In this document: positions 14,785 through 31,844 of the stretch, piece by piece
Numbering within the stretch: position 1 is the stretch's first letter
Layout of the letters: each line of letters opens with the position of its first letter
NCBI GenBank assembly: GCA_007859745.1
Contig: SMLU01000001.1
Coordinates: forward strand, 1,054,001 to 1,118,000
Length of the DNA: 64,000 bases
From: Phycisphaerae bacterium RAS1
Lineage (GTDB): Bacteria; Planctomycetota; Phycisphaerae; UBA1845; Fen-1342
Reading direction: 5' to 3'
Position numbers and translations under genes: made by a program
Notes under the pieces: model-generated
What the model was told of the DNA's origin: nothing
The model's input: the letters and a program-made list of their open reading frames with translations, nothing else
The model's database searches: none

Positions 14785-15236
14785 CGATTGAGCAGTTTCT
14801 GAGGGCGATGCGAGATTGCCAGTTCGGCGAGCTGGACATCGTGAGTTCGCCAAAATCCTCTACCGTATTACTACCGTTTTTAGCTTTCGATACCGCGTTT
14901 TCTCGCGAAAAAACGCGATGCCGTGCGAAGGATTGCGAAACGCGAATCTGATCGCTAAGCTGCTGAGAGAAAAGAACTTTCGGGATATCCGCCACGGAAT
15001 TTCCGGGGTTTTCCCAAGCTGGACGTCGAGGGTTCGAATCCCTTCGCCCGCTTTTGGATGTAACTCATTTAGACGCACTAGCTTACATGCTCGTGCGTTT
15101 TCATTTGGAAAGCCGTAGCGGCCGATAAAAACGGCTTTCCCGGAAAAGTGGGTCAGAAGTGGGTCAGTCCCAAACCGCGTCGCTCGCGCGTACTGCAACT
15201 GCGCGGCAGCGAGCGACAAGAGTGGGTCAGTCAGGA
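14712..15236. other. Intergenic region between Fic and integrase
   Basis: About 525 bases without a supported gene. It holds the Fic operator repeats and, near 15011-15053, the tRNA fragment. Between 14790 and 15000 there is an AT-richer patch without a clear signal. Frames crossing the tRNA fragment on the minus strand encode the familiar false peptide GIRTLDVQLGK, which arises from tRNA sequence. Confidence 0.6.
15011..15053 (+). other. tRNA 3'-end fragment, probable attachment site
   Basis: The segment ends with a T-arm (GAGGG TTCGAAT CCCTT) and a seven-base acceptor strand, CGCCCGC, followed by T. No D-arm or anticodon arm with a matching GCGGGCG strand is visible upstream. It therefore looks like the 3' part of a tRNA duplicated by site-specific integration. 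A tyrosine recombinase gene ends 184 bases away, pointing towards it, which is the usual arrangement at the end of an integrated element. The parent tRNA type is not determinable. Confidence 0.6.
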
Positions 15237-16388
15237 TCACTTCAAAACCTCGTCAAGCGCGCGACGCGCCTGTTCGACCAATTCCTCACGCACTTGCAGA
15301 TAGTGCTTGCGCGTCGTCCGGATGTCCGAGTGACCCGCGAGTTCTTGCACGACGTGCAAAGGCACGGCACCGGCAAGGTTCGTGCAGTAGCTCTTCCGCA
15401 GATCATGGAACGTGCATTTCGGAACGCCGGCCCGCCTGCGAATCGCCTGAAAGTCCCGCGTAAAGTTCTGCCGCTTCACACGGTCTCCGGTCGCCGGTCC
15501 CTTGCTGTTGACAAAAACGTAACGCTGTCCGTCAGCAGCCGCGAGCTGCGCTTCCGTCAGCACGTTCGCCGCGTTGGCCGGAATCGGTACGATGCGGAGA
15601 TCCTTGTCCTTCGGCGTCCAGGATTCGCCGGCGCCATGGGCCGGCTTGCGAACGACACGAAGCTGCTGTCGCTCGAAATCGACGTCACCCCACGTGAGAT
15701 GCAGGATTTCGCCGAGACGAAGACCGCAGCAGTAGGCCAACGCGATCATGCCGCGCCACCGCAGCGACGGAGCTGCGGTGACGAAGGCACGAAAGTGCTC
15801 GGGCGACACGTACTGCCAGCCCGCGTCGCCCACCTTCTCCTGCCGAATCCCTGCGAAGGGGTTCGACCGGATAAGCTCGCAGTCGAGTGCCTCGCGGAAG
15901 ATTCGCCGCGATTCGCGGATGAGCTTGTTCACCGTCGCGGGGGCGGGCACCGGTTCATCGTCCGGCCGCTGTCGAAACGCGCTGATGAACCGGCGGGCTT
16001 CGAGCGGTGTGATTCGATCGATGCGCCGGTCGGCGCCGAAGAACTCCCGTAGCCGTCGAAGCGTCCGCTCATGTTCTTCTAGCGAGCGTGAGGACAGGTC
16101 GCCGCGGAGCTTCAGATACATCTTCTCGAACTCCTTGAGGATTGTCGGCGGCGGCGCATCACCACGGCCATCGCGGACGGCGGCCTGTTTCGATTCTGCG
16201 AAGCGTTCAGCCTCCTTTCTGGTCTCGAAGCTCTTGCTGTAACGAGCTCCGTCCGTACCGAACCAACGCGCCGCCCAGCGGCACGGCCGATTCTTTGGCC
16301 ATTCCGAGCGCGGAAGTGGACTGCCGTTGGCATCGGTGGGGATTGCGCCATGGTACTTTCGGTAAACTCCTACTCTTTCAGTCGCCAT
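15237..16388 (-). CDS. int: Phage-type tyrosine recombinase / integrase
   Basis: The gene encodes 383 residues. An arm-binding and SAM-like core-binding N-terminal half is followed by the catalytic domain. That domain shows LAYCCGLRLGEILHLTWGDV (box I Arg), the active-site HDLRKSYCTNL (His-x-x-Arg), ELAGHSDIRTT (second His) and the nucleophile in KHYLQ (Tyr). All catalytic residues are present. Its 3' end faces a tRNA fragment, suggesting it integrates its element there. An excisionase-like gene and an ImmA/XRE pair follow on the same strand, forming an int-xis-immunity module as in ICEBs1-like elements. Confidence 0.93.
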   Translation of the reverse strand: MATERVGVYRKYHGAIPTDANGSPLPRSEWPKNRPCRWAARWFGTDGARYSKSFETRKEAERFAESKQAAVRDGRGDAPPPTILKEFEKMYLKLRGDLSSRSLEEHERTLRRLREFFGADRRIDRITPLEARRFISAFRQRPDDEPVPAPATVNKLIRESRRIFREALDCELIRSNPFAGIRQEKVGDAGWQYVSPEHFRAFVTAAPSLRWRGMIALAYCCGLRLGEILHLTWGDVDFERQQLRVVRKPAHGAGESWTPKDKDLRIVPIPANAANVLTEAQLAAADGQRYVFVNSKGPATGDRVKRQNFTRDFQAIRRRAGVPKCTFHDLRKSYCTNLAGAVPLHVVQELAGHSDIRTTRKHYLQVREELVEQARRALDEVLK

Positions 16389-17206: not shown

Positions 17207-17959
17207 CTACTCGTTTCGCGCCCCGCGCCCGGTGCGCTCATCTGGCGGCGATCCTCGGTCAAAAACGGAGATGGCCGAAGGCGACGCCCATGCGTAATAG
17301 AAGCGGGCCGGCAGCAGCGGACGTTGATGGTCCGTCGTCAGTCGAAGGCCACGGGCACGAATCAACGCCGCGATACGCGACACGCCAAATCGCCGACACA
17401 CTTCGGGGACCACGAGCGCCTTCCAGAGATCCTCTGATTTCTGCGTCGGCATCATGAGTTCGGACAGGCACCACTGAGGATCCAGCTTGGCGTCCTCGGC
17501 AATCCGCACCAGCTCGCGCTCCAGGTGCGGAATCGGCATCAGAAATGCAGCAGCGAACCGGTCGGCGTTGCGTTCGATTCGTTGCGATGATGCGAATCCC
17601 GGTTCATCGGTTTCCTGGAACGCGTCTGCGACCTTGGCGTGGAGCACGAAATGCCCGAGTTCATGGGCGCACGTGAAGCGGAACCGCCCTTCGTTCTGCA
17701 ACGCCTTGTCGGAAATCAGGATTTCGCGGTCCTTGATGAACGCGGCGCCGAGAACCTGCGGACCGAGGTGCGAAAGGTCTTCGATGCCGAAGCGAATGTC
17801 GAGCGCCCGCTCGATCCAGTCCTCAATGGGAATAGGCAACGGCGTTTTTTTCAGGCCGAGCTTGTGCCGGCAATACGCGAGGCATCGACGCGCCTTGCGT
17901 TCGACGATACGCAAGCCGGAACTCGGTTCAAACAGTTTGCCGTATTGGAACGCGCGCAT
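17207..17959 (-). CDS. ImmA/IrrE family metallopeptidase
   Basis: The gene encodes 250 residues. The zinc motif CAHELGHFVLHA lies near residue 100, with a downstream QRIERNADRFAAAFLMP segment supplying the third ligand, typical of ImmA. It follows the XRE repressor gene by only three bases. In ICEBs1 and related phages, ImmA cleaves the adjacent ImmR repressor after DNA damage or quorum signals and so induces excision. The proximity to the integrase and excisionase genes supports the same function here. A toxin-antitoxin role is possible, but no toxin is adjacent. Confidence 0.88.
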   Translation of the reverse strand: MRAFQYGKLFEPSSGLRIVERKARRCLAYCRHKLGLKKTPLPIPIEDWIERALDIRFGIEDLSHLGPQVLGAAFIKDREILISDKALQNEGRFRFTCAHELGHFVLHAKVADAFQETDEPGFASSQRIERNADRFAAAFLMPIPHLERELVRIAEDAKLDPQWCLSELMMPTQKSEDLWKALVVPEVCRRFGVSRIAALIRARGLRLTTDHQRPLLPARFYYAWASPSAISVFDRGSPPDERTGRGARNE

Positions 17960-17962
17960 GTT

Positions 17963-18385
17963 TCAGTCGCCCGCTTTCCGCTTCTTGTTGCCCGCCAGGC
18001 GGCGTGCCTGTTGAATGACGGAGTCCCACTGGTCAGACGTGAGATTGCGGGCCTCGCGCAGGAACGCCGGAACCTTCTCCGCCGCCAACGCATCCTGGGT
18101 TGCGATTTCCTCGACGATCGGCTGGGCCTTGCCCCACCCGGCCCGCAACTGCGACTCGTCGATGTCGTAAAGCTGTACGATCCTGAGCAGGAGTTCTTCG
18201 GACGGATTGCGCCGTCCGCACTCGATGTCGGTGAGGTGCGGCGGCGTGATGTCGAGCAACCGGGCCATCTCGCGCAGGCCCTTTTTCAGAACCGCGATGC
18301 GGCGCTGCCGGAGCACGTCGCCGATGGGCCCGTCCGATGGTCGATTCTTGGCCAAGTCAGCCTCCGATCCGCAGTGTATGCACAT
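17963..18385 (-). CDS. XRE-family repressor
   Basis: The protein has 140 residues. The helix-turn-helix lies at about 25-80 (GLREMARLLDITPPHLTDIE), followed by a C-terminal helical tail with a basic end (GNKKRKAGD). The first residues contain MCIHC, so the true start may be a TTG about ten codons later. It is co-transcribed with the ImmA-like peptidase and is the expected target of that enzyme. Upstream, at 18513-18582, is a hairpin repeat also found near 56.2 kb. Confidence 0.88.
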   Translation of the reverse strand: MCIHCGSEADLAKNRPSDGPIGDVLRQRRIAVLKKGLREMARLLDITPPHLTDIECGRRNPSEELLLRIVQLYDIDESQLRAGWGKAQPIVEEIATQDALAAEKVPAFLREARNLTSDQWDSVIQQARRLAGNKKRKAGD

Positions 18386-18512
18386 ATGCTAACGGCCCGC
18401 CCGCCGAAGTCAAGGGCCATGGTTTCACAGCCGGCGGCGGGTTTGGCTCGCATCTGACACGATCTGACCGCACGCTGAAACTGAGCCGCCGCAGTGAACG
18501 GCACGGGAACCA

Positions 18513-18582
18513 GTCGCGGGGCAGGTGACGCGCGGCGTTCGGCCGCGGGAACTGGTACCGGTGGGTTCCGCTACCCCGCGAC
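18513..18582. repeat. Structured repeat family S3, copy 1
   Basis: An outer stem GTCGCGGGG/CCCCGCGAC encloses a hairpin GCGGC-GTTCG-GCCGC and a second stem GGAAC/GTTCC. The interior, about 45 bases, is shared with 56229-56272. There the second stem reads GGAGC/GCTCC, a compensating base-pair change. This implies selection on folding, either as RNA or as single-stranded DNA. It lies 130 bases upstream of the XRE/ImmA genes. Confidence 0.55.
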
Positions 18583-19027
18583 GGAAAAAGCTCGCGGAAA
18601 ACCGTGACTTGCGCTTTCCATTGCGCTATTCTGGCCGCGTGAAACAGCGTTTCATAATCGTCAGAATCACGTGAACGCGTGGCCTGGCGTCTGAATCGTG
18701 GGATCGGACAACCGGTAAACCTGTCCACCAAACAGGCTAAGGAGGCGGACTTCATCACCCGCCATGTTCGAGTGCTCGTAGCGCTGGATGCCAGGAGACT
18801 GGCTCGTCCAGTGCGAGGGAGGCTCGGCTGAGTAATCCCAAGCTTTTGGAGTAATCCAGCCGTTCGATCCCATACACATCATGGGCGAGTCGCTTCGCAC
18901 CTGGCCGCGCCGTGGTTCGCCACGGGGCAAGGCCTCGGCCGAAGCGTCCGCCTCGTTCTTTGCATATGAAAACTGGGCGACCGGGACAGACTTGTGCTTT
19001 TGCGCGAGCCGGATCAGCCAAAGTGGG
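18583..19027. other. Noncoding stretch upstream of the structured RNA region
   Basis: No frame here has convincing protein composition, ribosome binding site or motif. Several short arms (CGCCGTGGTTCGCCACGG, CCGCGGG repeats) could fold. It may be the 5' part of the structured block that follows. Confidence 0.4.
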
Positions 19028-20010
19028 TGATGTCGCCATTGGCGGCTAATCCCCCTGCGGGGTTCGGGACCGTCCGACGCACGCGAGTGCGGCAGCGGCC
19101 CGTTCAACGTTTGCCCGGGCAGGGAGCTTGTTTGCGGCGACGCAAACGACCGGCGCGATGATAAGCGTCGGCATTCCGCATCAAACGGCGGATGGTGAAA
19201 AGCTCAACTGCGAAAGGCGGGAAACCGCTTCTGGGTGAGATCGATCGGAGACGTGCCGAACTGCGATAGAAAGACCTTCGCTGACGGGTAAGGGGAGCTT
19301 CTAGATTCGTACCCCGAAATCGTCTGCCATCCGGCGGGCGAAACGATGTCAACGGCGGAAGCCGTCGGCGTACAGCGATGCGAGCAACGTGTGCGGGAGA
19401 GACGCACGCGGAGCTTCCAGGTCAAGCGACGTGAACGATCGATTGGAGACTGGTTCTAACCGGGGAAGGGCTCTGGCAGCCGGGGTGATGCCCGGTGCCC
19501 GCTCATCGAGCGGGTGCTTCAAACGCCGGAGTCTGGGAGCGGGGCCTGAGTAGGAGCACGCGGAAGCGTGGCGGCAAAGCGGCAAGGCAGTCGCGATGCC
19601 GTTCGAGTGCTACGGGTGGTGCCGGGCATATATCGACGACGAAAGGGCCGACGAGCATTTCCCATGTTTGCAGACGTGTCGATGCGGCGCCGGGGCAGGG
19701 TTGACCTGCCCCGGCCCGTTTCGGCGGGTCGGAAGACAGCCAATGCGGTCAAACGAGGACCGTCGGAAGACGGCCGTCGTTTGGCAGCGGAATGACGATG
19801 CACAGGCGGGGTGTACCCGCGGGTGTATCGAGGTTGCGTGGCCGCAACCGCTATGTATTGGGCAACTGCAATGAATGAATCTAGCCGCATGGTGCGGATG
19901 GATGCCGATCGCACGATGCGACCCGATGGGCTGACGGCGACGCCGACAGCAAGCATCGGGTCGCGAAGGCGGGGAAGCGACGGCGTTCGGCTGGCGCCGA
20001 TGCGGTGAAA
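19028..20010 (+). ncRNA. Candidate large structured RNA with many GNRA hairpins
   Basis: About 1 kb without a credible gene is crowded with strong hairpins. Examples are GTTTGCG-GCGA-CGCAAAC (19130-19147), GCGG-GAAA-CCGC (19217-19228), ACGGC-GGAA-GCCGT (19352-19365), CCCGCT/AGCGGG (19498-19514), CACGC-GGAA-GCGTG (19557-19570), a 10-base stem at 19690-19714, and CCGTC-GGAA-GACGG nested in AAACGA/TCGTTT (19751-19781). The tetraloops read GNRA only on the + strand, which sets direction. Two ribosome-binding-site-led genes follow. It could be a large ornate RNA, a degenerate group II-type ribozyme or a long leader; no family was recognised. Confidence 0.5.
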
Positions 20011-20164
20011 GATTCCGAAGGGGCAGTGTGTTCAAGGCGTAGCGGTGAGCGGCCGGGTTCTCATGGAAGGAGGTGGTTTTGCACGCTGAGCCAGGATGCG
20101 CGGGGCGACCTGCGGGGCACGGCGTGGGAGAGGATGTGGTTTCGAGCGAAAGGAGGTGATTCGC

Positions 20165-20386
20165 ATGGGTTGGTGGCGCACGAGGAGCGGCAGCGTCATC
20201 GGCGACAGACCAGCCGACATCATCGAAGAGTTCGATGAACGATGTTGGCCGGAGCCGATGAGCATTCCGCCGGACGTGCGGGCACGCATCACGGCGTGTT
20301 ATTGGGAGGATTTCGACCGGGAGCCGACTGAGCAGGAACTCCGCGAACTACTGGAGTTCTGCGGGCCGGGTCCGGAGAGGGATTGA
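20165..20386 (+). CDS. Small acidic protein downstream of structured RNA
   Basis: The gene encodes 73 residues, starting at the ATG preceded by AAAGGAGGTGAT, an almost perfect ribosome binding site. That site overlaps the stop of a possible 26-codon leader beginning at TTG 20079, which has its own GGAAGGAGG. The protein is acidic in its second half (WEDFDREPTEQELRELLEFC). No family is recognised. The strong signal and plausible composition support translation. A hairpin and a further AAAGGAGG follow before the next gene. Confidence 0.55.
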   Translation: MGWWRTRSGSVIGDRPADIIEEFDERCWPEPMSIPPDVRARITACYWEDFDREPTEQELRELLEFCGPGPERD

Positions 20387-20451: not shown

Positions 20452-20469
20452 AGGGGAGGAAGGATTCGC

Positions 20470-21165
20470 ATGGAGTATCGGTGCGTCACAACGTCAGTCG
20501 AGGGATTCGTTCAGCAGCTCGCCGTCGCGTACATCACGCACGGCTACTGGTTCTATGTCGCCGGGGACATTCCGGAGAATAAGGATCCGGTCGGCGTCGA
20601 TGCGAAGCTCATCGATCGGTACGGCATCGCGATCACGAAGTGGGCGCGCTGCCGGCGCAAGAAACAGGGTCTGGCGAACATGCAGTATCTGCGGCACGAG
20701 CGGTTCTTCGTGCTGCTGGCAACGAAGGGCCAGCACGAGTTCTTCGAGCGCGAACGCCTTTCGGTTCGCGACGTGCGTCGCGTGCCGATCAAATTCACAG
20801 GATATTGTATCGGCTGTCGGAAAGGGCGCGACGGGAGGTGGCACGCGGCCGTCCGTGTCGAAACCAGAACCTATGCGGATATGCGCGCCTTTGTTTTCGG
20901 TGCGGCCATGCTCGCGGGCGATCACATATTCGCTCGGGCGCTACGAGAGTTATCGTTTGAACCTTACGCCGGGGTCCGTCGCCAATTGCTGACCGCTCTC
21001 CGCAAGGGAAACCGTGCGCGGAAGATTGCAGGGCGCGCGCCGCTGTCGCACGAGGTGTTGCAGCTTCGTCGCCGCCCAACTCAACCGTTCAGCACACAAT
21101 GCGGCGCGCCTAGCGCGGAACCGGAGGTTTTCGAGCTTCCCATGTGGCGACGAGAAACGTCGTGA
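20470..21165 (+). CDS. Hypothetical protein following the structured RNA
   Basis: This 231-residue protein starts at an ATG preceded by GGGGAGGAAGG. I recognise no family. It is basic, with a CIGCRKGRDG turn that could bind metal and hydrophobic strands (RFFVLLATKG) in the first half. The last 60 residues are Arg-rich and low in order. It ends convergently inside the 3' end of the Abi_C gene (56-base overlap). Because it follows the structured block and a coupled small gene, it could be the protein partner of that RNA. Confidence 0.6.
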   Translation: MEYRCVTTSVEGFVQQLAVAYITHGYWFYVAGDIPENKDPVGVDAKLIDRYGIAITKWARCRRKKQGLANMQYLRHERFFVLLATKGQHEFFERERLSVRDVRRVPIKFTGYCIGCRKGRDGRWHAAVRVETRTYADMRAFVFGAAMLAGDHIFARALRELSFEPYAGVRRQLLTALRKGNRARKIAGRAPLSHEVLQLRRRPTQPFSTQCGAPSAEPEVFELPMWRRETS

Positions 21166-21865
21166 CGGTGCCGGCGAGATTCAACGCGAGTTCGGCGTGA
21201 CGCGGCGCGGCACGAACAGAGGCTCTCCCCTTGCCGTGCGCGTCGCTCAAGCGATTCCTCATCGCGCCCAGTCCTTCCACCGCCGCGGTGCAGCCGCCCA
21301 GAATCTGCTTGAAGACTTGTTCCGTGTGTTGGCTTGGCGCGAGGGTCAGCTTCTCCGATGTGAGTCGGTAGAGTTTGGGAAGGTCCGCGTCGTCTGGGTA
21401 GGTCACGCCGTAATCGTCGAGAATGTGCTTGCAGACGGTCTCGATCAACATTCGAGCCGCGGTGAGCGCGCCGTCGGTGTCGCCGGTGCGACATCGCTCC
21501 AATGCCTTGTGCCACGCATCATGAATATGCGGGAGGTCTACGTGGGCGAGCGCGGCCGTTCCATGATCCTCGACTGGCGACACAGCGCCACGTTCCAACC
21601 AGCTCAGCAGTTTGTCGAATTCGGCGCGCAGAAACTCGCGTCGCTCATGATAGCTGGCAAACTTGGGCTTTATGAAGCCCCAGAACTCGTCGAGCGTGCG
21701 ACAAGTATGTACGAACCGCGGCACGAAGTCCTTGATCACAGCGTTGCCGATGAGTTCGGCCCGCAGTCTGCGAAAGTCCGCCTCGCTCGTCGCCCCACCG
21801 GTCGCGCGCGCGACCAGAATGTTCTTGAGCGTCTCTGCGGAAACAAGTATGGCGGACACATCCAT
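21110..21865 (-). CDS. Abortive infection family protein (Abi_C domain)
   Basis: The gene encodes 251 residues. The C-terminal 120 match the Abi_C pattern: AARMLIETVCKHILDDYGV, then LPKLYRLTSEKLTLAPS and MRNRLSDAHGKGR ending in a helix. The Rn-x-HG element is the most diagnostic part. Such domains resemble HEPN-type RNases and occur in abortive-infection genes. It lies one base after the DUF2513 gene and downstream of the CBASS pair on the same strand, so it may be a second effector or an independent passenger. Confidence 0.8.
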   Translation of the reverse strand: MDVSAILVSAETLKNILVARATGGATSEADFRRLRAELIGNAVIKDFVPRFVHTCRTLDEFWGFIKPKFASYHERREFLRAEFDKLLSWLERGAVSPVEDHGTAALAHVDLPHIHDAWHKALERCRTGDTDGALTAARMLIETVCKHILDDYGVTYPDDADLPKLYRLTSEKLTLAPSQHTEQVFKQILGGCTAAVEGLGAMRNRLSDAHGKGRASVRAAPRHAELALNLAGTVTTFLVATWEARKPPVPR

Positions 21866-22286: not shown

Positions 22287-23765
22287 TCACGCGATTCGGA
22301 CGTAGGTTCTTCCCGAGCGCGCCACACAGGTGCCATCTTTGATGATGAACGCCTCAATCCAATGCGTCCCGCGGTACAACGTCGATTCCCACCGGACACG
22401 GCCGTCGGTCGACTGACCGGACTCGAACCCGCCTCGAAGGCTGCCGGCATCGAGCGCGGCACGACCGGTGTTCACAACCTGCCAGCGCACTTCATAGGGT
22501 TGCGGAACATTCGTCGTCACTTCAAATCGAAGCCCGAACTGTTTTGGTACGGGCCGGCTCGTCAGGTTCCACAGCCGCCGCTGCTGGAGCGGCTCTTTGT
22601 GGACAGTCCCTTTGACAGCCGCCTTGAAATAAGCGCGTACCGGCCATTGTGGCGCCTGACAATGACGGTAGTCCGCGAGCTTAGGTACGGCGAGCTCCCG
22701 GCTCGACGATGACGCTGCGACAATCGCGCCTGAGCGTGCGGAGGCTTCGCTAAGGAGCGATTCACCAAAAATCGGCCTCAGTGCCGCAGCCACGTCGTCC
22801 AATGACATCCCGCGCGCCGCTGTTTCAAGGTCGGCGCGGACTCTCGCGAGCCAGTTGAAGAACTTCGTCGCGCGTTGCGGATGTTCAGCCCAGCGGTCGG
22901 CAAAATTCTCCTCCAGGTTCACGGGGTTGGGGACCCAATAAACACCGTCGCGACGTTGGATGAACTTGGGCATTCGATCGACGATTGCGACGAGCGCTTC
23001 TTGAAGATCGTCCTGATTCTCGTACGCATGGCCGGCGAGCGTCGTGATGATGATGGACGCCGGTTTGTCGTCCTCGTCTTGCTGAAAGTTGATGTCTCGG
23101 TGTCGCTTCAGGATTTGCACGGCGCGTTGCAGGGGCGTTTTAACGCGCCACTCCGGCACATCTTCGATCGATGCCTGAATCGACGCGGCCAGTGCCGCGC
23201 GTTTCTGCATGAACCGAATGAGCATCCGCTGCTTGAACCACTCAGCGTAGCCGATCGGGTTGCTGTGCTGCCATAGTCGCAAGTCCTTGTCCGTGATCAG
23301 AATGCTGCTCGGACCCCCATCCGGGTCAGGTATCGCTGGCAATACGTCCATGTGAAACGGCGTCGGGTATTGCAACCGCCAACAGCGCTGCTTCTCGCTC
23401 AGCTCAGGCGCGTCGTCCTCCGTCTTTTTCGATCGCACGTACTGTCGCAGGTTCGCGCCCGCCTCAGCCTTCAAGTCGTGTTGGGTCGTGCTTTCTTTCT
23501 GCAAATCACGCTCATATACCAGGTCGATGTCGTACTCGTCGTTGTCCGTAATCGCCCGAATCATCGTGCCGAGTCGGAATGATCCCTGCGCATACACTTC
23601 CGGCTCGCGGCGCCCCTGCGCGTCATCATGCTCGATCAAGAAGGCGCCAAGCTCTTGATACTTCTCAACGGCGTCTTCAAAGAGCTCGTCTGGAATGTCG
23701 AGCGTTTCGGCAATCGCATTCAACAAGCCGTTCAGGTCACGATTGAGTTGAATTGTCGTCGGCAT
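22287..23765 (-). CDS. CBASS CD-NTase (cyclic oligonucleotide synthase)
   Basis: The gene encodes 492 residues. The nucleotidyltransferase core shows GSFRLGT at 61-67 and NDEYDIDLVYE with Asp79 and Asp81. The third acidic residue follows in FHMDVLPAIPD near residue 139. A helical OAS-like C-lobe follows. The last about 115 residues form a beta-rich extension resembling the SMODS-associated sensor domain AGS-C. It would make cyclic di- or trinucleotides on phage infection. Its ATG overlaps the patatin stop (TAATG), the tight coupling typical of effector-synthase pairs. Confidence 0.92.
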   Translation of the reverse strand: MPTTIQLNRDLNGLLNAIAETLDIPDELFEDAVEKYQELGAFLIEHDDAQGRREPEVYAQGSFRLGTMIRAITDNDEYDIDLVYERDLQKESTTQHDLKAEAGANLRQYVRSKKTEDDAPELSEKQRCWRLQYPTPFHMDVLPAIPDPDGGPSSILITDKDLRLWQHSNPIGYAEWFKQRMLIRFMQKRAALAASIQASIEDVPEWRVKTPLQRAVQILKRHRDINFQQDEDDKPASIIITTLAGHAYENQDDLQEALVAIVDRMPKFIQRRDGVYWVPNPVNLEENFADRWAEHPQRATKFFNWLARVRADLETAARGMSLDDVAAALRPIFGESLLSEASARSGAIVAASSSSRELAVPKLADYRHCQAPQWPVRAYFKAAVKGTVHKEPLQQRRLWNLTSRPVPKQFGLRFEVTTNVPQPYEVRWQVVNTGRAALDAGSLRGGFESGQSTDGRVRWESTLYRGTHWIEAFIIKDGTCVARSGRTYVRIA

Positions 23766-24757
23766 TAGGTCGAACCTCCGTCTTTCGGACCCGCCAGAGG
23801 AACATACGGCGGCGCCACATGGCTGAGGAACTGCGCTTTGAAGGACGGCGCGAGCACGCGACTTTCATGCGCGGCTTTGGCGATGAGCTGGTCGGCATTC
23901 AGTCGGTCGAGCGAAAAGAGCCCCTGTGGGACCTTGGGGTCGATTCGGCAGACCTGCTCCGCGCCCAGAAGATGAAGTGTCTGTTTGTGAACTCCGATAC
24001 TTTGCCCGCGCATGATCACGTCCACGGCCGCGTTGCGCCACTGCCACAGGCCACCGCGATCGAGGGCGTTTGTGCGGGCGACGACCGCGTCCGTGGTCCC
24101 TACGCTGAATACGTGAATGCTCGCGAGCGGGACACTGAGAACGCTCAGTGCTTCGATCACGCCCACCATGGTAGGATTGTTGGCCCAGACACCGCCGTCG
24201 ATCAATCGCATGTGGTCGACGTCACGAGCAGCCGGGAAGTACGTCGGTGCCGCGCTGGTGGCGAGCGCCACCTTCCACGCCGGAACCTTCCAATCGCGCC
24301 GAAGTCGCTCGTGGTGAGGCGTCCTGAAGATGTAAACGTCGTCTTCGCCCAGGTTGTAGGATGGAATCACCAGCCGCTTACGGCTTTGACCGAAGAGTTT
24401 GTCGCCGAACGCATCGCGCTCGCGCAGTGCCGACGCGAGCGGAATCTCCGAGAACTTCCGCGTGAAGTAATGAGAGATTGAGCGCAGTCCGAGTCGATTA
24501 CGAAAAATGCCGCCGCCGTGCCGGGTGTAGAACTGCACGATTTCGCGCGGCCGCATGCCCAAGCCAAGCCCCAAGGCGATGATGCCGCCGGTCGAAGTTC
24601 CGACGATCAAATCAAAGTGGTTTGTGACATCGACCTGGAAATCGTCTTCAAGCGACGCCAGCACGGCGGCGGCAAAAAGGCCCTTAATTCCGCCCCCGTC
24701 GAACGAGAGGATCTGGAATCGAGAGTCGATCGTCGGCTGGGTTGATGGCTGCATCAC
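23765..24757 (-). CDS. capV: Patatin-like phospholipase effector (CapV-like)
   Basis: The protein has 330 residues. It has the oxyanion glycines in LSFDGGGIKGLFAA (about 18-31), the nucleophile elbow GTSTGG with Ser55, and the catalytic aspartate in RLIDGGVWANNP near residue 187. Patatin effectors of type I CBASS are activated by the cyclic nucleotide of their partner and degrade inner-membrane phospholipids. The adjacent CD-NTase gene and the absence of E1/E2 or JAB genes define a minimal type I system. This gene comes first in the operon. Confidence 0.92.
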   Translation of the reverse strand: MMQPSTQPTIDSRFQILSFDGGGIKGLFAAAVLASLEDDFQVDVTNHFDLIVGTSTGGIIALGLGLGMRPREIVQFYTRHGGGIFRNRLGLRSISHYFTRKFSEIPLASALRERDAFGDKLFGQSRKRLVIPSYNLGEDDVYIFRTPHHERLRRDWKVPAWKVALATSAAPTYFPAARDVDHMRLIDGGVWANNPTMVGVIEALSVLSVPLASIHVFSVGTTDAVVARTNALDRGGLWQWRNAAVDVIMRGQSIGVHKQTLHLLGAEQVCRIDPKVPQGLFSLDRLNADQLIAKAAHESRVLAPSFKAQFLSHVAPPYVPLAGPKDGGST

Positions 24758-24908: not shown

Positions 24909-26675
24909 TCAGGCAATTGTGGCGTCGGTCTGCGTCGGAGCCAGATGATGCTCACGCATCCAACCCAGCGCAATACGAAGGCGAGTGGGCTCGAAGCGTT
25001 TCTTCGATTCGTGCCAGTTTTCGCGGACTTCGGTGATGATGGTGTCGTCGGTGGCGGGGTGGCCGGCGCGGAGGAGGTCGGACCAGGCGGCGAAGAGGGT
25101 GGCGACGATTTCGGCGCGTTCGGTGTCGAACTTCTCCATCCAGGCGAGCAGGAAATCCATCTTGGCCTTGCCGGCGCCGAGATACTTCTCCGCCGCGGCG
25201 AGCAGTTGAGCGGATTTCGCGCCGGGGTGGTACGTGTGCCGGGTCTTGTCGCCGGCGATGGTTCGTTTGACGAACCAGCCGTTCTTCTGGGCGGCGCTTT
25301 CCAGTTTGTAGAGGTACTCGGCGTCTAGTGGGCCGGCGGCGGCGCGCTTGAACTCGCCTTCCAGATCGACGCCGACGTACGCCTCGGCCAGATAGAGGCA
25401 CTTTTCGAGCTGCACGCGGCCGAAAGTCGGCCGCGCGTGCAGCCGGTCGATGATGTACGCGGCGATGGCGGCACGCCTGAAGTAGATCGTGGCGCTGTGT
25501 TTCCGAGCGGGCGCTGGGGCTGCGTCCGTCGTTGTGTGAGCAGGCCGAAAGACCCTTTGGAGTAGCGAAGGGAGCAGGGCCTCAGAATCTCTCGCCGCAC
25601 GAGCACGAAGTTGTCGCAGCCGCTCGATTCTCTGAAAGAGATGCACGAGCGCTTCCTGTGCTTCGGCAGTCGGCATCGGAACTTGAAGCGCCAGGAAGTG
25701 TTCCGGGCGCGTTCGTTCGCGTCTTGCGCCAACGCCGCGAGTGAGCGTGGCCAAATTCTTCATGAACCAAGGTGTGCGAAACATCGCGGCCAGATACTTG
25801 GGGACGCCGAAGCCCGGGATGCAGCGAAAAGTGCGATATTCCGGAGAGGCGTACACTCCCACGAATTCCGTTGTGCAAACCGCAATTGCGCCTTCCCAGC
25901 CTTTCACTTGGCTGAGAACGACCGCGTCTTGATAAAGGCGATTGAACCGCTTGTAGGTTGTTTCCGAGCCGCGCACGGCCTGCTTCGCGAACATCCCGGC
26001 ACCGAAGCCGCGCAGACCAATCTGCGGATACTCGCCGTCCGGCACGATTGGGACTGACTCCTCGTGAAGCTCCAAGACCTCGCCAAGCGGGACAATTCTG
26101 TTGCGTGCCGCGTGAAAATGGGAGCTGGTGATCAGCATCTCCGATTCTTGGTCGGCTTGCTGTCGAATTCGTTGAACCTCGGCAAGTTGCACTGCGACTT
26201 GGTCGATCTGGTCCACGATCCGCCGTTGCTCCTCCAGCGGCGGCAGCGGAACCCGGTAGGCGAGCACATGGGCGGGTCTAATTGCGGCGTAATTCGTAGT
26301 TCCCTGCGCCGCGACTTGCTCGAAGAACGCAGGCGTACGAATGAAGTAGCCGAGAAAACCGCGGTTGAGCTTGGCCGAGTCGATCTCGAATAGGAAGTAG
26401 TGGCTGCTCACGATCGCGCCGTCGAGTTCGGCGGGGACAATGCCATATCCGCCCATCTTCGCGTCGATCTCGGCTACGAGAAACTCACCACTGCGGCAGA
26501 CTTGTTGTTCTTTCGTCTTGAGCGCCACTCCATCGACGACATCGCGTATCACGATGCCCTTGGCGTGAAGCTGCACGCGGCAACGCTTGTACGAGCCAGC
26601 GTCGTCGATGCGGACGAACTCTTTCCGGTGCCGCAGTACCGTTCCGAGCGAAACTATCGGCCACGGCGCACTCAC
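24909..26675 (-). CDS. hsdS: Type I restriction specificity subunit (HsdS) with extra C-terminal domain
   Basis: This is 588 residues, longer than the usual 400-450. Two target-recognition domains, each followed by a conserved helix (PLPPLEEQRRIVDQIDQ near 150; MPTAEAQEALVHLFQRIERL near 340), set DNA specificity. After residue 395 comes an additional 190-residue domain. It begins AAIAAYIIDRLHARPT, then LEKCLYLAEAYVG and a GPLD turn, and ends with IITEVRENWHESKKRF. This pattern recalls the Panacea/SocA-like fold of antitoxin proteins. The start overlaps the DUF1016 stop, so it is co-translated with the rest of the operon. Confidence 0.85.
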   Translation of the reverse strand: MSAPWPIVSLGTVLRHRKEFVRIDDAGSYKRCRVQLHAKGIVIRDVVDGVALKTKEQQVCRSGEFLVAEIDAKMGGYGIVPAELDGAIVSSHYFLFEIDSAKLNRGFLGYFIRTPAFFEQVAAQGTTNYAAIRPAHVLAYRVPLPPLEEQRRIVDQIDQVAVQLAEVQRIRQQADQESEMLITSSHFHAARNRIVPLGEVLELHEESVPIVPDGEYPQIGLRGFGAGMFAKQAVRGSETTYKRFNRLYQDAVVLSQVKGWEGAIAVCTTEFVGVYASPEYRTFRCIPGFGVPKYLAAMFRTPWFMKNLATLTRGVGARRERTRPEHFLALQVPMPTAEAQEALVHLFQRIERLRQLRARAARDSEALLPSLLQRVFRPAHTTTDAAPAPARKHSATIYFRRAAIAAYIIDRLHARPTFGRVQLEKCLYLAEAYVGVDLEGEFKRAAAGPLDAEYLYKLESAAQKNGWFVKRTIAGDKTRHTYHPGAKSAQLLAAAEKYLGAGKAKMDFLLAWMEKFDTERAEIVATLFAAWSDLLRAGHPATDDTIITEVRENWHESKKRFEPTRLRIALGWMREHHLAPTQTDATIA

Positions 26676-27901
26676 GAATGCCGCCCCCGCTTGCGTTTCG
26701 AGCTTGGACGACGGGGCGTCGGTTGCGCACTTCCCCTCCGCTCAAGCGCGGCGCGTGTGCGCTCGATCTCCTGCGCCAAGAGCCTCTCATCAGGCAACGC
26801 CGTGCGATACTCGGCCGCAACGACCTTGTTCGGCAGCCCCTCCAGTGCGTAGCGGGCGACGGCCGCATCTTTCTGGGCGCAGAGGATGAGACCGACCGGC
26901 GGATTCTCGCCGGGTTGGACCCAATGCTCGCGCGCGAAATTCAGGTATAAATGCATTTGGCCGGCGTCGGCGTGCGTGAAGCGGCCGAGCTTCAGGTCGA
27001 TGACGATCAGGCAGCGCAGCCGGCGGTGGAAGAAGAGCAAATCCACGCGATACCACTCGTCGCCGATGCGGAGCCGCCGCTGGCGGCCCACAAAGGCGAA
27101 ATCACCGCCGAGTTCGAGCAGGAACGTCTCCAACTGGTGGATGAGGGCGTCTTCGAGGTCGGTCTCGGAGTATTCGTCCTTGAGGTTTAGAAACTCCAGG
27201 ACGTAGGGGTCTTTGATTTCCTCATCGACTGTGATGGTGTCGTCCGGACGCGATTTTTCGCCCTTGCGGAGCAGCGCGGCCGTGTCGCGCGAGAGTGCGG
27301 TGCGCTCGTAGAATTGCGTCGAAATCTGGCGCTCAAGCTGCCGCACCGACCAGCCGCCGCGTAGAGCCTCAGATTCGTAGAAGCGACGGGCGAGGGGATT
27401 CTTGAGCGAGAGCAGCTTGACGTAGTGCGACCAGGGCAAGGGGAACCGCGTGGCGAGCGCGGACAGGGACGAATCGCCAGATGGTGTCTGGCGATTCACG
27501 AGGTCGGGTGATTGTGCAGGCGCTGTCTGAACAATGTTGCGGGCCGGCGATTCTTCAGACGGTGTCTGAAGAATCTGGTGGTGCGGCCAGTTGAGGAAGA
27601 AGCGACGCATCTGCGTCAGGTTTACGTAACCGAACCCCCGCCCGAATCGCGCCGTGAGGTCCGCGGCAAGCCGCCTCAACAGCGCTTCGCCATACTCCGC
27701 CCGTGAGGCGCCGGCTTGCTCATGCTCGACGATGCGGCGGCCGACATCCCAGTAGGTCGCGGTTATCAGCGCGTTCACGGCGCGGACAGACGTGCGGCGC
27801 GCCGCTTCGAGTAGGTCCACGATACCGCCGAGCACGGCGTCGTAGCCGACCGAGCGCGAGGGCTGGGCGATGGCCGTGGTCTGTTTTCGCCGTGCGGCCA
27901 T
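26672..27901 (-). CDS. DUF1016 / YhcG-type PD-(D/E)xK nuclease
   Basis: The gene encodes 409 residues. The N-terminal DUF1016 domain (about 20-230) includes SVRAVNALITATYWDVGRRI and a helical module SVRQLERQISTQFYERTALS. The C-terminal nuclease has VDLLFFHRRLRCLIVIDLK, giving the Asp and Asp-x-Lys of a PD-(D/E)xK site. YhcG-like proteins often travel with type I restriction operons. The gene lies between hsdM and hsdS, sharing the ATG/TAA junction with hsdM. It may act as an accessory nuclease or recombination protein; a role in the core restriction complex is not implied. Confidence 0.88.
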   Translation of the reverse strand: MAARRKQTTAIAQPSRSVGYDAVLGGIVDLLEAARRTSVRAVNALITATYWDVGRRIVEHEQAGASRAEYGEALLRRLAADLTARFGRGFGYVNLTQMRRFFLNWPHHQILQTPSEESPARNIVQTAPAQSPDLVNRQTPSGDSSLSALATRFPLPWSHYVKLLSLKNPLARRFYESEALRGGWSVRQLERQISTQFYERTALSRDTAALLRKGEKSRPDDTITVDEEIKDPYVLEFLNLKDEYSETDLEDALIHQLETFLLELGGDFAFVGRQRRLRIGDEWYRVDLLFFHRRLRCLIVIDLKLGRFTHADAGQMHLYLNFAREHWVQPGENPPVGLILCAQKDAAVARYALEGLPNKVVAAEYRTALPDERLLAQEIERTRAALERRGSAQPTPRRPSSKRKRGRHS

Positions 27902-29460
27902 TAGCGGCTCTCCGCGAGCACATGCTTGATTTCGTGCATGATCTCGATGATGCGCTGCTCCTTGGTCAGGATGTCCTCAACGAGCTGCTCGGGCGGGAGG
28001 TGCGCCAAATCCTCGGCGGCGCTGGGGTTCTTGATGTCGAGGTTGCAGCCCTTCGCGAGTACGTCGGCAGCCCGAACCTTCCAGGCGCGTTCGTTTTCAA
28101 CACGCTTTTTTGCGGGCCACCACGCGACGCAATCGGAAAACTCCTCGTACTGGAGCGGCTGCGTCTTCGTGTAATTCTTGCGGCCCTCGGGGAGGGGTTG
28201 CTCGTAGAACCAAACGTCCTTCGTGGCGCCGGAACGGTCGAAGAACAGCAGGTTCGTCGGAATGTTTGTGTACGGTGCGAAAACCCCGTTTGGGAGCCGG
28301 ACGATCGTGTGCAGGTTAAAGTCCTTCAGCAGCTCCTCCTTGATGCGGGCACAGACACCGTCGCCAAAGAGCGTGCCGTTTGGCACGACGACTGCGGCCC
28401 GGCCGCCGCGTTCGGAGCCGTGGCCGGGGCGTTTGAGTTTTCGCATGATGAGTTGCAGGAAGAGCATCGCTGTCTCAGAAGTCTGCTTGTCCTCCGGGAA
28501 ATTCGACAGGATGCCGCGTTCTTCCTCGCCGCCGAACGGCGGATTCGTAAGGATGATGTCCACGCGGTCCTTGTCGCCGATCTGCATCACCGGCGTTGCG
28601 AGACTGTTGCCGGTGTCAATCCGCGGGAAATCGAGACCGTGAAGCAACAAGTTCATCTGGGCTAGCAAGTACGGCAGCGGCTTGGCCTCGGCGCCGATGA
28701 TGCTCTGTTCCTGAAGTTGCTTTCGGTCCTGGACGGTCTTGCACTGCTGTTCGAGGTGGCGAAAGGTCTCGACCAGGAATCCGCCGGTTCCGCAGGCGGG
28801 GTCGAGGATCGTCTCGCCGAGTCGCGGGTTGGTCACTTTAACCATGAGGCGTACGACCGGGCGCGGTGTGTAGAACTCGCCCGAGTCGCCGGCAGCGTCG
28901 CGCATCTCCTTCAGCATCGACTCGTACAGGTGGCCGAGGGTGTGAATTTCGTCGCTGCTGGAGAAGTGAATCGCGTTGATCTTGTTGATCACGTCGCGCA
29001 GCAGGTAGCCGTTGATCATGCGGTTGACGGTGCCGTGGAAGACGGACGCGATTACGTCGCGACGGTCGCCGCCGTTGGCGCCCTGGAGCGAACGCAGATA
29101 CGCGAATAGGCCGCGTCCGCGCTTGCCGTCTGGCCGCATGGCCTCGTCCTGATTGATGAACGCGATCAGCTCATCGCCGGTGATGCCGTCGTCTTTGGCA
29201 GCCCAATTGCGCCAGCGGTACGGCGGCTCAATGGCGGGGCGAAAGCGCTTTCCGGCCAGCGTCGCTTCCTGCTCGCGGACGTGCTCCATGTCGTCGAGGA
29301 ATTTGATGAACATGATCCACGTCAGCATCGGTAGGCGGTCAAGGTCGCCGTTGAGCCCCTTGTCTTTCCGCATAATGTCGCGGGCGGATTTGACGAGGCG
29401 GCCGAGCTGCTGCGCGGTCGTGAGGGGCTCATCGATTCGAGTCTTCTTCGCCATCGGCAC
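27901..29460 (-). CDS. hsdM: Type I restriction methyltransferase subunit (HsdM)
   Basis: The protein has 519 residues; a start two codons later is equally good. The N-terminal helical domain (HsdM_N) is followed by SAM-binding motif I ILDPACGTGGFL and catalytic motif IV ILTNPPFGG, the gamma-class order of type I enzymes. With HsdS it methylates N6-adenine in a bipartite site and protects the host. Gene order is R, M, DUF1016, S on one strand with short spacings, indicating a single transcript. Confidence 0.95.
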   Translation of the reverse strand: MPMAKKTRIDEPLTTAQQLGRLVKSARDIMRKDKGLNGDLDRLPMLTWIMFIKFLDDMEHVREQEATLAGKRFRPAIEPPYRWRNWAAKDDGITGDELIAFINQDEAMRPDGKRGRGLFAYLRSLQGANGGDRRDVIASVFHGTVNRMINGYLLRDVINKINAIHFSSSDEIHTLGHLYESMLKEMRDAAGDSGEFYTPRPVVRLMVKVTNPRLGETILDPACGTGGFLVETFRHLEQQCKTVQDRKQLQEQSIIGAEAKPLPYLLAQMNLLLHGLDFPRIDTGNSLATPVMQIGDKDRVDIILTNPPFGGEEERGILSNFPEDKQTSETAMLFLQLIMRKLKRPGHGSERGGRAAVVVPNGTLFGDGVCARIKEELLKDFNLHTIVRLPNGVFAPYTNIPTNLLFFDRSGATKDVWFYEQPLPEGRKNYTKTQPLQYEEFSDCVAWWPAKKRVENERAWKVRAADVLAKGCNLDIKNPSAAEDLAHLPPEQLVEDILTKEQRIIEIMHEIKHVLAESR

Positions 29461-29468
29461 TTAGCTCG

Positions 29469-31844
29469 TTACGCAGCGTAAAGGATCGTCTGAAGCTCGT
29501 GGACGGCGTCGCGGAGCTGGTCCGGACCGCCGAAGTGGGCCGCAATCTCGACAACGTTGCCGTGGCGCGAGATCGGCGGAACCTTCAATACATCTGGAAG
29601 CAGGAACTGGGCCGTACCATGCTCTGCGTACTTTTCGAGCAACTCGTTCAGAATCGATCTCGCCTCTGGGCCATGTTGGTCAAAGAAGTCCCGCTTTTCG
29701 CGCCGCAGGCGATCTGCCCTCTCACGCCGCGTGCGAAGTGGAGCGTTATACGCGACGTGGCACAGCAGGTCGAAGGGGTCGGCGTCGGGCTGATTGGTTG
29801 TCGCCGCGAGTTCGTCGAAGTCGATGCCTCGATCCGTGAGTTTCGCGATGATTTCGGCACGGTGCTCGGGATTCGCCCAGCCGGCGCGAAGCTCCGCGGC
29901 GGTCGGATAGAGCGTCCGAACACGGTCGGCGGCGTAGTCGGTGTAGCGGACGACGCGAAGCTGCCGTCCCTGGTCGTCCATTTCGTAAACGAGATGAGCG
30001 GCAATCTCGACGTGGCCGTGGTCTACGTAGAATTTGCGACGCTCGTTTGGGGGAACCGGGTCGATGATGGTGGCGCCGGTGTTGGCGATGACGATGTCGC
30101 CGCCGTCGTCGAGCACTTCTTCTGGGTCGATTATCACTTCATTCGTCACTTGCCCGTTTTCGTCGATTTCCTGCTGAGTGACCAAAGCCGGCTCGCCGTC
30201 GAATTCGGGGTCGGCGAAATGTCGCGTGGCTGAACCGGTGTAATCGAGAATGCTGAAGAAATACTTGCCGTAGTCGTCGCGGACGCGCGTGCCGCGGCCG
30301 ATGATTTGCTTGAACTCGGTCATGGAGCCGACGACACGCGCGATCGCGATGTTCTTGCACGTTGGGGCGTCGATGCCGGTCGTGAGAAGCTGCGACGTCG
30401 TAAGGATGACGGGCGAGGTCGTCTCAAGCTCCTGGAAGCGGCTCAAGTGGCCGCGCCCGATCGCCCCCTCCTCGGACGTGACGCGGCAAACGTAATCCGG
30501 GTAGCGCTGCACTAGATCCGAATTCAGATTTGTCAGCGCGCGACGCATTTCGTCGGCGTGCTCCTGGTCCACGCAGAACACCATCGTCTTCGCGAAGCGG
30601 TCCGTGCGCTTCAGGAAGTCGGTCAGGTGGCGCGCGATGGCTTCGGTTCGTGCGCGGAGCGCGACGACACGCTCGAAATCCTTCGTGTGGTACTCGTCGT
30701 CTGGAATCTCACGGCCAAAGCGGTCGAGTTCGCCCTGGTTCGGGCGCCATCCGGCCGCATCAAACGTCGTGATGACTCGATGCACGCGGTACGGTGCGAG
30801 AAAGCCGTCGTCGATGCCCTGTCGCAAGCTGTACGTGTAGAGCGGGTTGCCGAAATAGCGGTACGTGTCGCGGTTGTCGTCGCGGAGCGGCGTAGCCGTC
30901 ATGCCGATCTGGAACGCGGGGGCAAAGTAATTGAGGATTTCACGCCAATTGCTGTCGTCGTTTGCGCTGCCCCGGTGACACTCGTCCACGATGATCAGGT
31001 CGAAAAAATCAGGAGCAAACTCGCGGAAGAGGCCGGGACGACGCTCGTCCGTGGCGATGGCCTGATAGATCGCGAAGTACATCTCGCGGCTCTTCACGAC
31101 CTCGCCGTGCTCGATCTTGTGGCGGGCATCGGCGAACGGCGTGAAGGTCTTGTCCTTCGGGTCGTCGATCAGGATGTCGCGGTCGGCGAGGTACAGGATC
31201 TTCGGTTTGCGATGCTCGCCGGTGCGGTTCCAGCGCGACGACCAGAGCTTCCAGCAGATCTGAAATGCTACGACCGTCTTGCCAGTGCCGGTCGCCATTG
31301 TGAGCAAGTTGCGTGAACGGTCCTGAAGAACGGCTTGAACCGCTCGATTGATCGCGATTTCCTGATAGTAGCGCGGCGTTTTGCCAACATGCAAGAAGCA
31401 CGGCGAGAGCAGTTTCTCGCCGATCTCAGGTGAAATCTTCTCAGCAGCGCACAGCCGCGACCACAGCTCCTGCGGTGTGGGAAAGCGGTCGAACTCGCGT
31501 TCCGTTCCGGTCAGGTAATCGAATTCGATGATGCCGTGGCCGTTTGTCGCGTAGGCGAATTGCAATCCGAGAACCTCGGCGTATTCCTTGGCCTGCTGGA
31601 GACCCGCGCCGGGTGTCCGGTACTCAGCTTTCGCTTCGACCACGGCAATCGGAAAGTCCCGCGTGTAGCGGAGCAGGTAATCGGCGCGCTTTTGGGGACC
31701 GCGACGGACTCGGCCGCCGACGACGAGAATCCGCCCGTCAGTGAACGTACGCTGCTCGGTGAAGGAAGCGGGATCGCTGTCCCAACCGGCTTCGATGAGC
31801 TTGGGGAGCACGTACTGACGGCAGGTGTCCGCCTCGTTACTCAA
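29469..31844 (-). CDS. hsdR: Type I restriction motor/nuclease subunit (HsdR)
   Basis: The gene encodes 791 residues. The N-terminal nuclease region contains RADYLLRYTRDFPIAVVEAK, supplying the PD-(D/E)xK-like Asp and Glu-x-Lys. The helicase domains show Walker A MATGTGKTVVAFQ, Walker B IIVDECHRGS and motif VI IGRGTRVRDD. The C-terminus matches EcoEI-type R subunits. It pumps DNA through the complex and cuts at collision points. It begins the operon, 198 bases from a divergent helicase gene, so promoters for both probably lie in 31845-32042. Confidence 0.95.
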   Translation of the reverse strand: MSNEADTCRQYVLPKLIEAGWDSDPASFTEQRTFTDGRILVVGGRVRRGPQKRADYLLRYTRDFPIAVVEAKAEYRTPGAGLQQAKEYAEVLGLQFAYATNGHGIIEFDYLTGTEREFDRFPTPQELWSRLCAAEKISPEIGEKLLSPCFLHVGKTPRYYQEIAINRAVQAVLQDRSRNLLTMATGTGKTVVAFQICWKLWSSRWNRTGEHRKPKILYLADRDILIDDPKDKTFTPFADARHKIEHGEVVKSREMYFAIYQAIATDERRPGLFREFAPDFFDLIIVDECHRGSANDDSNWREILNYFAPAFQIGMTATPLRDDNRDTYRYFGNPLYTYSLRQGIDDGFLAPYRVHRVITTFDAAGWRPNQGELDRFGREIPDDEYHTKDFERVVALRARTEAIARHLTDFLKRTDRFAKTMVFCVDQEHADEMRRALTNLNSDLVQRYPDYVCRVTSEEGAIGRGHLSRFQELETTSPVILTTSQLLTTGIDAPTCKNIAIARVVGSMTEFKQIIGRGTRVRDDYGKYFFSILDYTGSATRHFADPEFDGEPALVTQQEIDENGQVTNEVIIDPEEVLDDGGDIVIANTGATIIDPVPPNERRKFYVDHGHVEIAAHLVYEMDDQGRQLRVVRYTDYAADRVRTLYPTAAELRAGWANPEHRAEIIAKLTDRGIDFDELAATTNQPDADPFDLLCHVAYNAPLRTRRERADRLRREKRDFFDQHGPEARSILNELLEKYAEHGTAQFLLPDVLKVPPISRHGNVVEIAAHFGGPDQLRDAVHELQTILYAA

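Follow-up and report, generated by a model that had tools for sequence, protein, structure and literature searches.

What is the RNA in a block of about 1 kb whose GNRA-capped hairpins all lie on one strand, and what does the gene behind it do? The block (19028–20010) is part of the window, i.e., the whole 64,000-nt stretch of the Phycisphaerae bacterium RAS1 genome analysed here. Our main reading, held with a probability of about 0.8, is that the locus carries a circularly permuted (CP) group II ribozyme and AcpG, a protein that would act as its miniature, RT-dead maturase, on an integrase-bearing element; catalysis, co-transcription, binding, and maturase function are inferred. Directly established are the domain order, the covariation, the likeness to published members, the gene pairing, the AcpG homology, and the absence of a DD motif.

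The sequence-only reading had proposed a ribozyme or large ornate noncoding RNA, citing five GNRA loops on the + strand of a gene-free block ahead of two strongly led ORFs. The one-sided distribution of hairpins held: a scan for GNRA tetraloops on stems of at least 4 bp finds six on the + strand (loops starting at 19083, 19137, 19221, 19357, 19562, and 19765) and none on the − strand, while 300 dinucleotide shuffles of the block yield 0.8 on average and never more than 4. The minimum free energy, −495.8 kcal/mol, is far below that of shuffled sequences (z = −8.7, 30 shuffles). The two ORFs also held, with Shine–Dalgarno-like leaders at 20148–20167 and 20453–20472. As for the absence of genes, ORFs of 65–145 aa, read from the sequence and without a family scan, overlap the block on both strands; a conserved protein frame there is argued against, since the RNA structure covaries (see below). 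The limits were off, the RNA beginning upstream and its common core stopping at about 19762. On the left, P1 starts at 18720 and D5 at 18780, and similarity among copies in the same genome extends to 18657; on the right, the core ends where the likeness to the copy at 2.84 Mb stops, and the last ~250 nt of the block, including the hairpin at 19765, fall outside it. The proposal itself is supported, in that the evidence points to such an RNA, with catalysis inferred.

The Rfam scan gives one match above the gathering threshold in the whole window, to group II D5–D6 (RF00029, 46.3 bits, 18779–18873, + strand), just upstream of the block. No Rfam family reaches threshold within the block, and no tRNA genes were found in the 64,000 nt. 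A group I intron and an OLE- or GOLLD-like RNA were also considered and dropped, the block being without an Rfam match. The sequence-only reading had covered D1–D4 only, and missed D5–D6, the splice sites, and the identity of the downstream ORF. We conclude that 18720–19762 is likely a CP group II ribozyme, with the block as its D1–D4, and a further member of a described class; its catalysis is inferred. The elements follow in the order P1-P2-D5-D6-linker-D1-D2-D3-D4:

18720–18736, + strand: P1 hairpin, class-specific, 5′ of D5 (from the sequence; similar stem in homologues)
18744–18763, + strand: P2 hairpin, loop AUCAC complementary to GUGAU of the D2 loop (read from the sequence)
18779–18815, + strand: domain 5 (D5) with AGC triad, GAGA tetraloop, and bulge (RF00029, covariation)
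18816–18873, + strand: domain 6 (D6) with bulged branch-site A at 18867 (side-by-side relatives, covariation)
after 18873, + strand: 3′ splice site, CCCAU and then the cut (splice-site rule)
18874–18974, + strand: linker enclosed by the reversed splice sites, predicted to form an RNA circle of 101 nt (splice-site rule)
18975–19463, + strand: 5′ splice site, the cut and then GGGCG, and domain 1 (aligned relatives, consensus structure)
19303–19308, + strand: EBS1, AGAUUC, in a D1 hairpin loop (covariation with IBS1 in homologues)
19468–19535, + strand: domain 2 (consensus structure)
19543–19649, + strand: domain 3 (consensus structure)
19689–19715, + strand: domain 4-like hairpin, named by position (core ends at about 19762)

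Several features that define the class are present. D5 and D6 are located 5′ of D1 (18779–18873 precedes 18975), and the splice sites are internal and reversed; the canonical group II order, with D5–D6 at the 3′ end, is not met, as D5–D6 are upstream in the window. D5 with its AGC triad, tetraloop, and bulge and D6 with its bulged A are seen both in the sequence and by covariation; the splice motifs GGGCG and NU are present (GGGCG at 18975, CCCAU before 18874); D1, D2, and D3 form a secondary structure of 165 predicted pairs; and the P1/P2 stems and the pseudoknot between the P2 and D2 loops are supported in relatives by test and in the window by reading of the loops AUCAC and GUGAU. The linker holds a strong stem-loop (fold z = −3.1).

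Side by side, 32 sequences with a D5 match show a single order: D5, then D6 (last letters CCCAU or a near variant), a variable linker, GGGCGA, and a large conserved domain. The CP anatomy is assigned because the relatives share this order (PMC8637638). The 3′ splice site of one relative (L037) was mis-set in this comparison. Applied to the published pPNAP05 RNA of P. naphthalenivorans, the splice-site rule gives a linker of 32 nt (L012, 213–244, counted by eye), and the published linker is 32 nt (PMC8637638). A 5′ splice site at 18883, which would leave a 9-nt circle, was dropped, as the GGGCG there is not conserved in relatives, whereas that at 18975 is. The block might instead be an unrelated new class of large ncRNA with a group II-like D5–D6 nearby by chance. 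In favor of this, Rfam sees only D5–D6, and nothing in the block reaches a family threshold; against it, the 32 sequences all have D5–D6 together with the block's 5′ splice site, in one order, and the splice-site motifs, EBS1–IBS1, and P2–D2 match the published class. This explanation is practically ruled out.

Covariation across relatives supports D5, D6, D1–D3, EBS1–IBS1, and the class-specific P2–D2 pseudoknot. In D5/D6, 17 of 22 pairs are changed on both sides, with 98.9% of cells paired, and none of 500 shuffles does as well (31 sequences, 30 distinct). In D1–D3, 120 of the 165 predicted pairs show two-sided changes with pairing retained (22 sequences; RNAalifold, one alignment, no R-scape); hence, the outcome that the sequence-only reading had named as a refutation, homologues without covariation, is not met. 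The D1–D3 structure was predicted from the very alignment used for pair counting, without phylogenetic control. The P2–D2 loops show a mean complementary run of 5.16, compared to a shuffle mean of 3.91 and maximum of 4.42 (2000 shuffles; 45 distinct homologue rows). For this test the loops were taken from the alignment; two earlier P2–D2 tests, with faulty loop extraction, gave no significant excess. The window is not among the 45 rows, its stem having missed the pattern.

EBS1–IBS1 pairing was assessed in a fixed register, with 10 of 70 rows removed for lack of the motif and 53 further rows collapsed to 46 distinct ones. At the three splice-proximal positions, 99 of 138 pairs are formed in these 46 relatives (shuffle mean 58, maximum 83, 2000 shuffles). 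A free-register search for EBS1 shows no excess over shuffles (4.99 vs. 4.87, maximum 5.11). The window's own subclade (seven rows) is only partly paired, position −3 never pairing; since IBS1–EBS1 is incomplete there, this subclade may be impaired or rely on other pairings.

The incomplete pairing raises a rival explanation, in which a canonical group II intron was rearranged and has decayed to an inactive remnant; that two canonical, RT-bearing group II introns are present in this genome lends it further weight. Against it, the genome has three copies of the element (the window; C1:2.84 Mb; C1:1.009 Mb) that, at ~86% identity, all retain D5, D6, D1–D3, P1, and P2; a compensatory change in D5 is seen between these copies; and covariation is strong class-wide, with the class-specific pseudoknot conserved. 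We consider decay very improbable.

At the DNA level, the ribozyme matches 39 of 101 genomes, own included. We also built a search model, R1, from 21 sequences without the window. R1 recovers the window end to end (107.4 bits), the reversed 5′ splice site included, and matches 65 genomes among 150 relatives at E 0.001. The scores are almost bimodal, with 58 places in 41 genomes at ≥58 bits and a tail at ≤53 bits. Part of the low tail consists of canonical introns; an own-genome pair (40.5 and 37.2 bits) lies just behind RT genes. As R1 scores of 24–41 bits fit canonical introns too, those of pPNAP05 (34.6) and pTT8 (14.8) cannot alone separate permuted from canonical; their permuted status rests on published identity and the 32-nt linker. 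Besides the three permuted ribozymes, the genome thus has two canonical, RT-bearing group II introns (G000, C2:32681–33861 and C2:409941–411124), in which the RT precedes D5–D6.

In a sample drawn evenly across the phylum, R1 exceeds 80 bits in 9 of 392 genomes, own included, and related named contigs are mostly from Phycisphaerae and other Planctomycetota; a search of viral contigs gave no match. The element is probably concentrated near the host's order, with the reservation that R1 was built mainly from relatives of the host, so that its high scores and the raised rate in that group partly reflect how it was made. The main text of PMC8637638 names neither Planctomycetota nor Cyanobacteria; both have members here. 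The window has a predicted circle of 101 nt, and those of relatives range from 12 to 220 nt, compared to 15–86 nt published (PMC8637638); both extremes, 220 nt in one relative (L026, 1083–1302) and 12 nt in Leptolyngbya (L014), are beyond the published range. A Calothrix plasmid (L007) has two permuted D5-D6-5′ splice site units ~2 kb apart (1850–1988 and 4001–4130), with an acpG-like gene found after the second only.

Downstream of the RNA, on the same strand, are two ORFs:

20096–20386, + strand: small ORF between the RNA and acpG, 96 aa, with the start more likely at 20165 (73 aa); same place and strand in 7 of 20 loci
20470–21165, + strand: AcpG homologue, 231 aa, with predicted RT palm and thumb and no catalytic Asp pair (profile match, predicted fold)

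The small ORF at 20165–20386 (MGWWRTRSG...) has no family match. Pfam and NCBIfam give no match for the 231-aa product, and PHROGs none that is significant. AcpG was described as associated with CP RNAs and as homologous to no known class of protein (PMC8637638); its Thermus representative is TTHC007, which, from its size and place, we take to be TTH_RS11295. The profile of the window's family matches that of five Thermus AcpG along 165 colinear columns (probability 96.8, E 2.5e-10); because of this match, the product of 20470–21165 is identified as a distant AcpG homologue. The window protein is only 17–19% identical to Thermus AcpG, BLASTP against TTHC007 finds nothing, and single-sequence hhalign gives a probability of 35.7.

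Pairing of the gene with the RNA is seen from both sides. For strong RNA matches in the 150 relatives, an AcpG-family ORF is found within 8 kb in 47 of 58, always on the same strand and beginning 1.06–1.95 kb past the start of the D5 match; the remaining 11, to which one of the three copies in the own genome belongs, have none within 8 kb. For loci selected by the protein (the best 80 of 107 relatives found in genome contigs), the RNA is upstream on the same strand in 69; of the 11 without it, 8 have <1.2 kb of upstream sequence. The two counts overlap partly and are not independent. The pairing spans many genera and, by MAG record titles, several phyla, where contigs assigned to other phyla may be misbinned. 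Relatives of the ORF are present on named plasmids in nine records. Long ORF-free gaps precede the acpG-like gene in Planctomycetes K2D, Leptolyngbya, Calothrix, and Planococcus, and D5–D6 were found in these gaps. In Thiothrix the RNA match is divergent from the acpG-like gene, as in Thermus; for the Gluconobacter acpG-like gene, no RNA match was found in its 10 kb. Co-transcription of acpG with the ribozyme is likely, by inference. The gene is downstream and co-directional here, compared to mixed orientations in PMC8637638. The window protein and TTHC007 share remote homology and a CP RNA neighbor; they differ in length (231 vs. 259 aa), in orientation (co-directional downstream vs. divergent in pTT8), and in that an RT-maturase fold is proposed here, whereas no homology was found in PMC8637638.

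The fold of AcpG was predicted with AlphaFold from 69 sequences (pLDDT 91.5, pTM 0.84). Its secondary-structure order, H-E-H-H-E-E-H-E-E-E-H-H-H, reads in this model as the RT motif A strand, helices, the motif C hairpin, motif D/E strands, and a three-helix thumb. In Foldseek, the top PDB match of the full model is a group II intron RT (E 3.6e-3); neither the full model nor the palm has a match at E ≤0.001. VIA-align ranks group II RT entries first: 8h2h_D (Z 9.7, rmsd 4.0, 189 aligned), 8t2r_D (Z 9.3, rmsd 3.7, 181 aligned), 6me0_C (Z 9.0, rmsd 4.1, 181 aligned), and 8fli_B (Z 8.8, rmsd 3.8, 187 aligned); the Prp8:Aar2 entry 4i43_B follows with Z 7.8 (rmsd 4.7, 198 aligned), and retrons and RdRps score lower. 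By title, the top 50 VIA-align rows are palm-type polymerases or Prp8, with the spliceosome chains counted as Prp8.

Since models without a clear match often reach Z 7–8 in VIA-align, the palm alone (residues 1–131) was also predicted (pLDDT 94.6) and searched. Nine group II RT entries come first (Z 8.6–7.8, rmsd 3.2–3.8, 102–121 aligned), followed by a drop to 6.3; four further group II or G2L4 RT entries reach only Z 5.5–6.0. Foldseek with the palm puts 8h2h_D first (E 0.014), the following matches being unrelated. The RT palm and thumb fold is met on the predicted model (8h2h_D; palm alone Z 8.6, rmsd 3.8, 121 aligned).

Sequence support for descent of AcpG from an RT is weak. Pfam matches of the 69 AcpG members include no RT or maturase families, and a PDB sequence search with AcpG finds nothing at E up to 10. 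Hhalign of AcpG with canonical RTs gives a weak match (E 0.017) limited to the FLGF/thumb stretch, its score of 26.83 barely exceeding the maximum of 150 column-permuted controls (26.35); the Thermus AcpG profile gives nothing against canonical RTs (E 0.45). A forced global alignment of AcpG with RTs leaves YxDD unaligned, hence the equivalence of motif C rests on the fold. The hairpin expected to bear YxDD has Y-x-R in all 69 members and DD in none. The catalytic motif of an RT is not met, and, because DD is absent throughout, AcpG is classed as maturase-like, not as a reverse transcriptase. RT derivation is likely, on a model-predicted fold with weak sequence support; that AcpG is not an active RT is also likely; and a maturase is the most likely function, inferred without binding or activity data. 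An RT in trans is not obviously required: the first 61 relatives include 24 CP-positive genomes, half of which (12) lack an RVT_1 match, 10 of these 12 at ≥93% completeness.

A more serious rival keeps the CP group II ribozyme and denies that AcpG is its maturase, the RT-like fold being used otherwise (e.g., in a regulator of the element) by a mere co-traveller. In its favor, fold likeness proves no function, the original authors caution that association may not mean physical interaction (PMC8637638), and some CP RNAs lack acpG, including those reported without a nearby acpG in PMC8637638. Against it, the pairing is frequent, co-directional, narrow in distance, and spread over many genera in the loci examined, and the top fold matches belong to the protein family that assists group II RNAs. 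We regard this rival as unlikely, and retain the maturase reading.

Upstream of the RNA, on the opposite strand, are genes of the presumed host element:

17963–18385, − strand: XRE-type regulator, divergent from the RNA (Pfam HTH; 10 of 20 loci)
17207–17959, − strand: ImmA/IrrE-type M78 peptidase (PF06114; 9 of 20 loci)
15237–16388, − strand: tyrosine integrase (PF00589, E 4e-29; 7 of 20 loci)

The 20 loci (13–20 kb, chosen on long contigs, two of them own-genome copies) have AcpG in 18 and an excisionase-like ORF in 5; XRE, M78, integrase, and the excisionase-like ORF recur upstream on the opposite strand. A tRNA-Gly-like 3′ end (15021–15051) adjoins the integrase gene; it has an exact 31-nt copy at C1:1167606 and five near copies, and the motif occurs with two mismatches in two intact tRNA-Gly genes elsewhere in the genome. 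As the tRNA 3′ end beside the integrase recurs exactly at C1:1167606, an integrative island of ~98.6 kb fits, and this 3′ end is likely its att site. By analogy, the RNA-acpG unit might be switched together with the element via the divergent XRE/M78 pair; this is no more than a possibility.

The same presumed island carries, on the − strand, a CBASS pair (22287–24757), an oligonucleotide cyclase (PADLOC, E 1.7e-164) and a phospholipase effector (E 6.3e-106). Type I restriction-modification-like genes lie at 24909–31844, − strand (24912–26675 scanned, the remainder read from translations); an AbiJ-like gene (21110–21865) lies beside acpG. A self-complementary 71-nt block at 18511–18581 (UCGCGGGG...CCCCGCGA; fold z = −2.0) has a 93% match in the 1.009-Mb copy and is visible in the 2.84-Mb copy, while the intervening stretch up to the ribozyme differs among copies; it may tentatively be taken as a further small RNA element.

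If the reaction follows that of the published class, the branch-site A at 18867 would attack the 5′ splice site at 18975, and the freed 3′ end would then attack the 3′ splice site after 18873; the predicted products are an RNA circle of 101 nt and a branched, T-shaped RNA. No spliced product was seen in the one host tested so far (PMC8637638). AcpG (231 aa) would be a shrunken group II RT that has retained the palm and thumb and lost the fingers and catalytic aspartates. Its most likely role would be that of a maturase for splicing only, which binds and stabilises the permuted ribozyme of its own locus, in the manner of MatK or Prp8 elsewhere; the ribozyme-acpG pair would be part of an integrase-bearing mobile element.

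The window RNA shares with the published CP group II ribozymes, "T-large" RNA (Roth et al., 2021; PMC8637638), the D5-D6-D1-D2-D3-D4 order, the bulged branch-site A, P1/P2, the reversed GGGCG/NU motifs, the P2–D2 pseudoknot, EBS1–IBS1 (only partly paired in the window's subclade), the lack of an internal RT ORF, and a nearby acpG; IEP ORFs were never observed near CP RNAs (PMC8637638). In its predicted fold, AcpG shares the palm and thumb topology with group II intron RT/maturases (PDB 8h2h, 8t2r, 6ar1), its best structural matches, but has no fingers RT0–RT2 region, YxDD, or endonuclease part; it is encoded downstream of D4, not within it. Like the proposed AcpG, MatK is RT-derived with RT motifs lost, Prp8 keeps the RT fold, and both are tied to group II-type splicing (PMC4424553); both, however, are organellar or nuclear and much larger, and MatK retains domain X by sequence, whereas the likeness of AcpG is mainly via the predicted fold.

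In the literature searched, we found no description of the co-directional RNA-acpG unit or of an RT-maturase fold for AcpG, and the only relevant mention of AcpG with "group II", or of TTHC007, is in PMC8637638. A bolder reading, which we favor by a narrow margin, is that AcpG proteins are the missing maturases of CP ribozymes, a bacterial family of miniature, RT-dead palm-thumb proteins descended from the intron's own RT when the RNA was permuted; the two would form an RNP module of integrative elements serving splicing-type chemistry (circle or branched RNA) and not retromobility, a bacterial parallel to the spliceosomal Prp8.

The roles of CP ribozymes and AcpG were left open by PMC8637638; a maturase-like fold would give AcpG a testable job, and suggests a function for a protein family that had none assigned. 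AcpG also provides a protein handle to locate CP RNAs. If true, the maturase reading could account for the folding of a permuted ribozyme at cellular Mg2+; AcpG would then be a bacterial example of an RT turned splicing-only cofactor, bearing on the origins of Prp8 and MatK.
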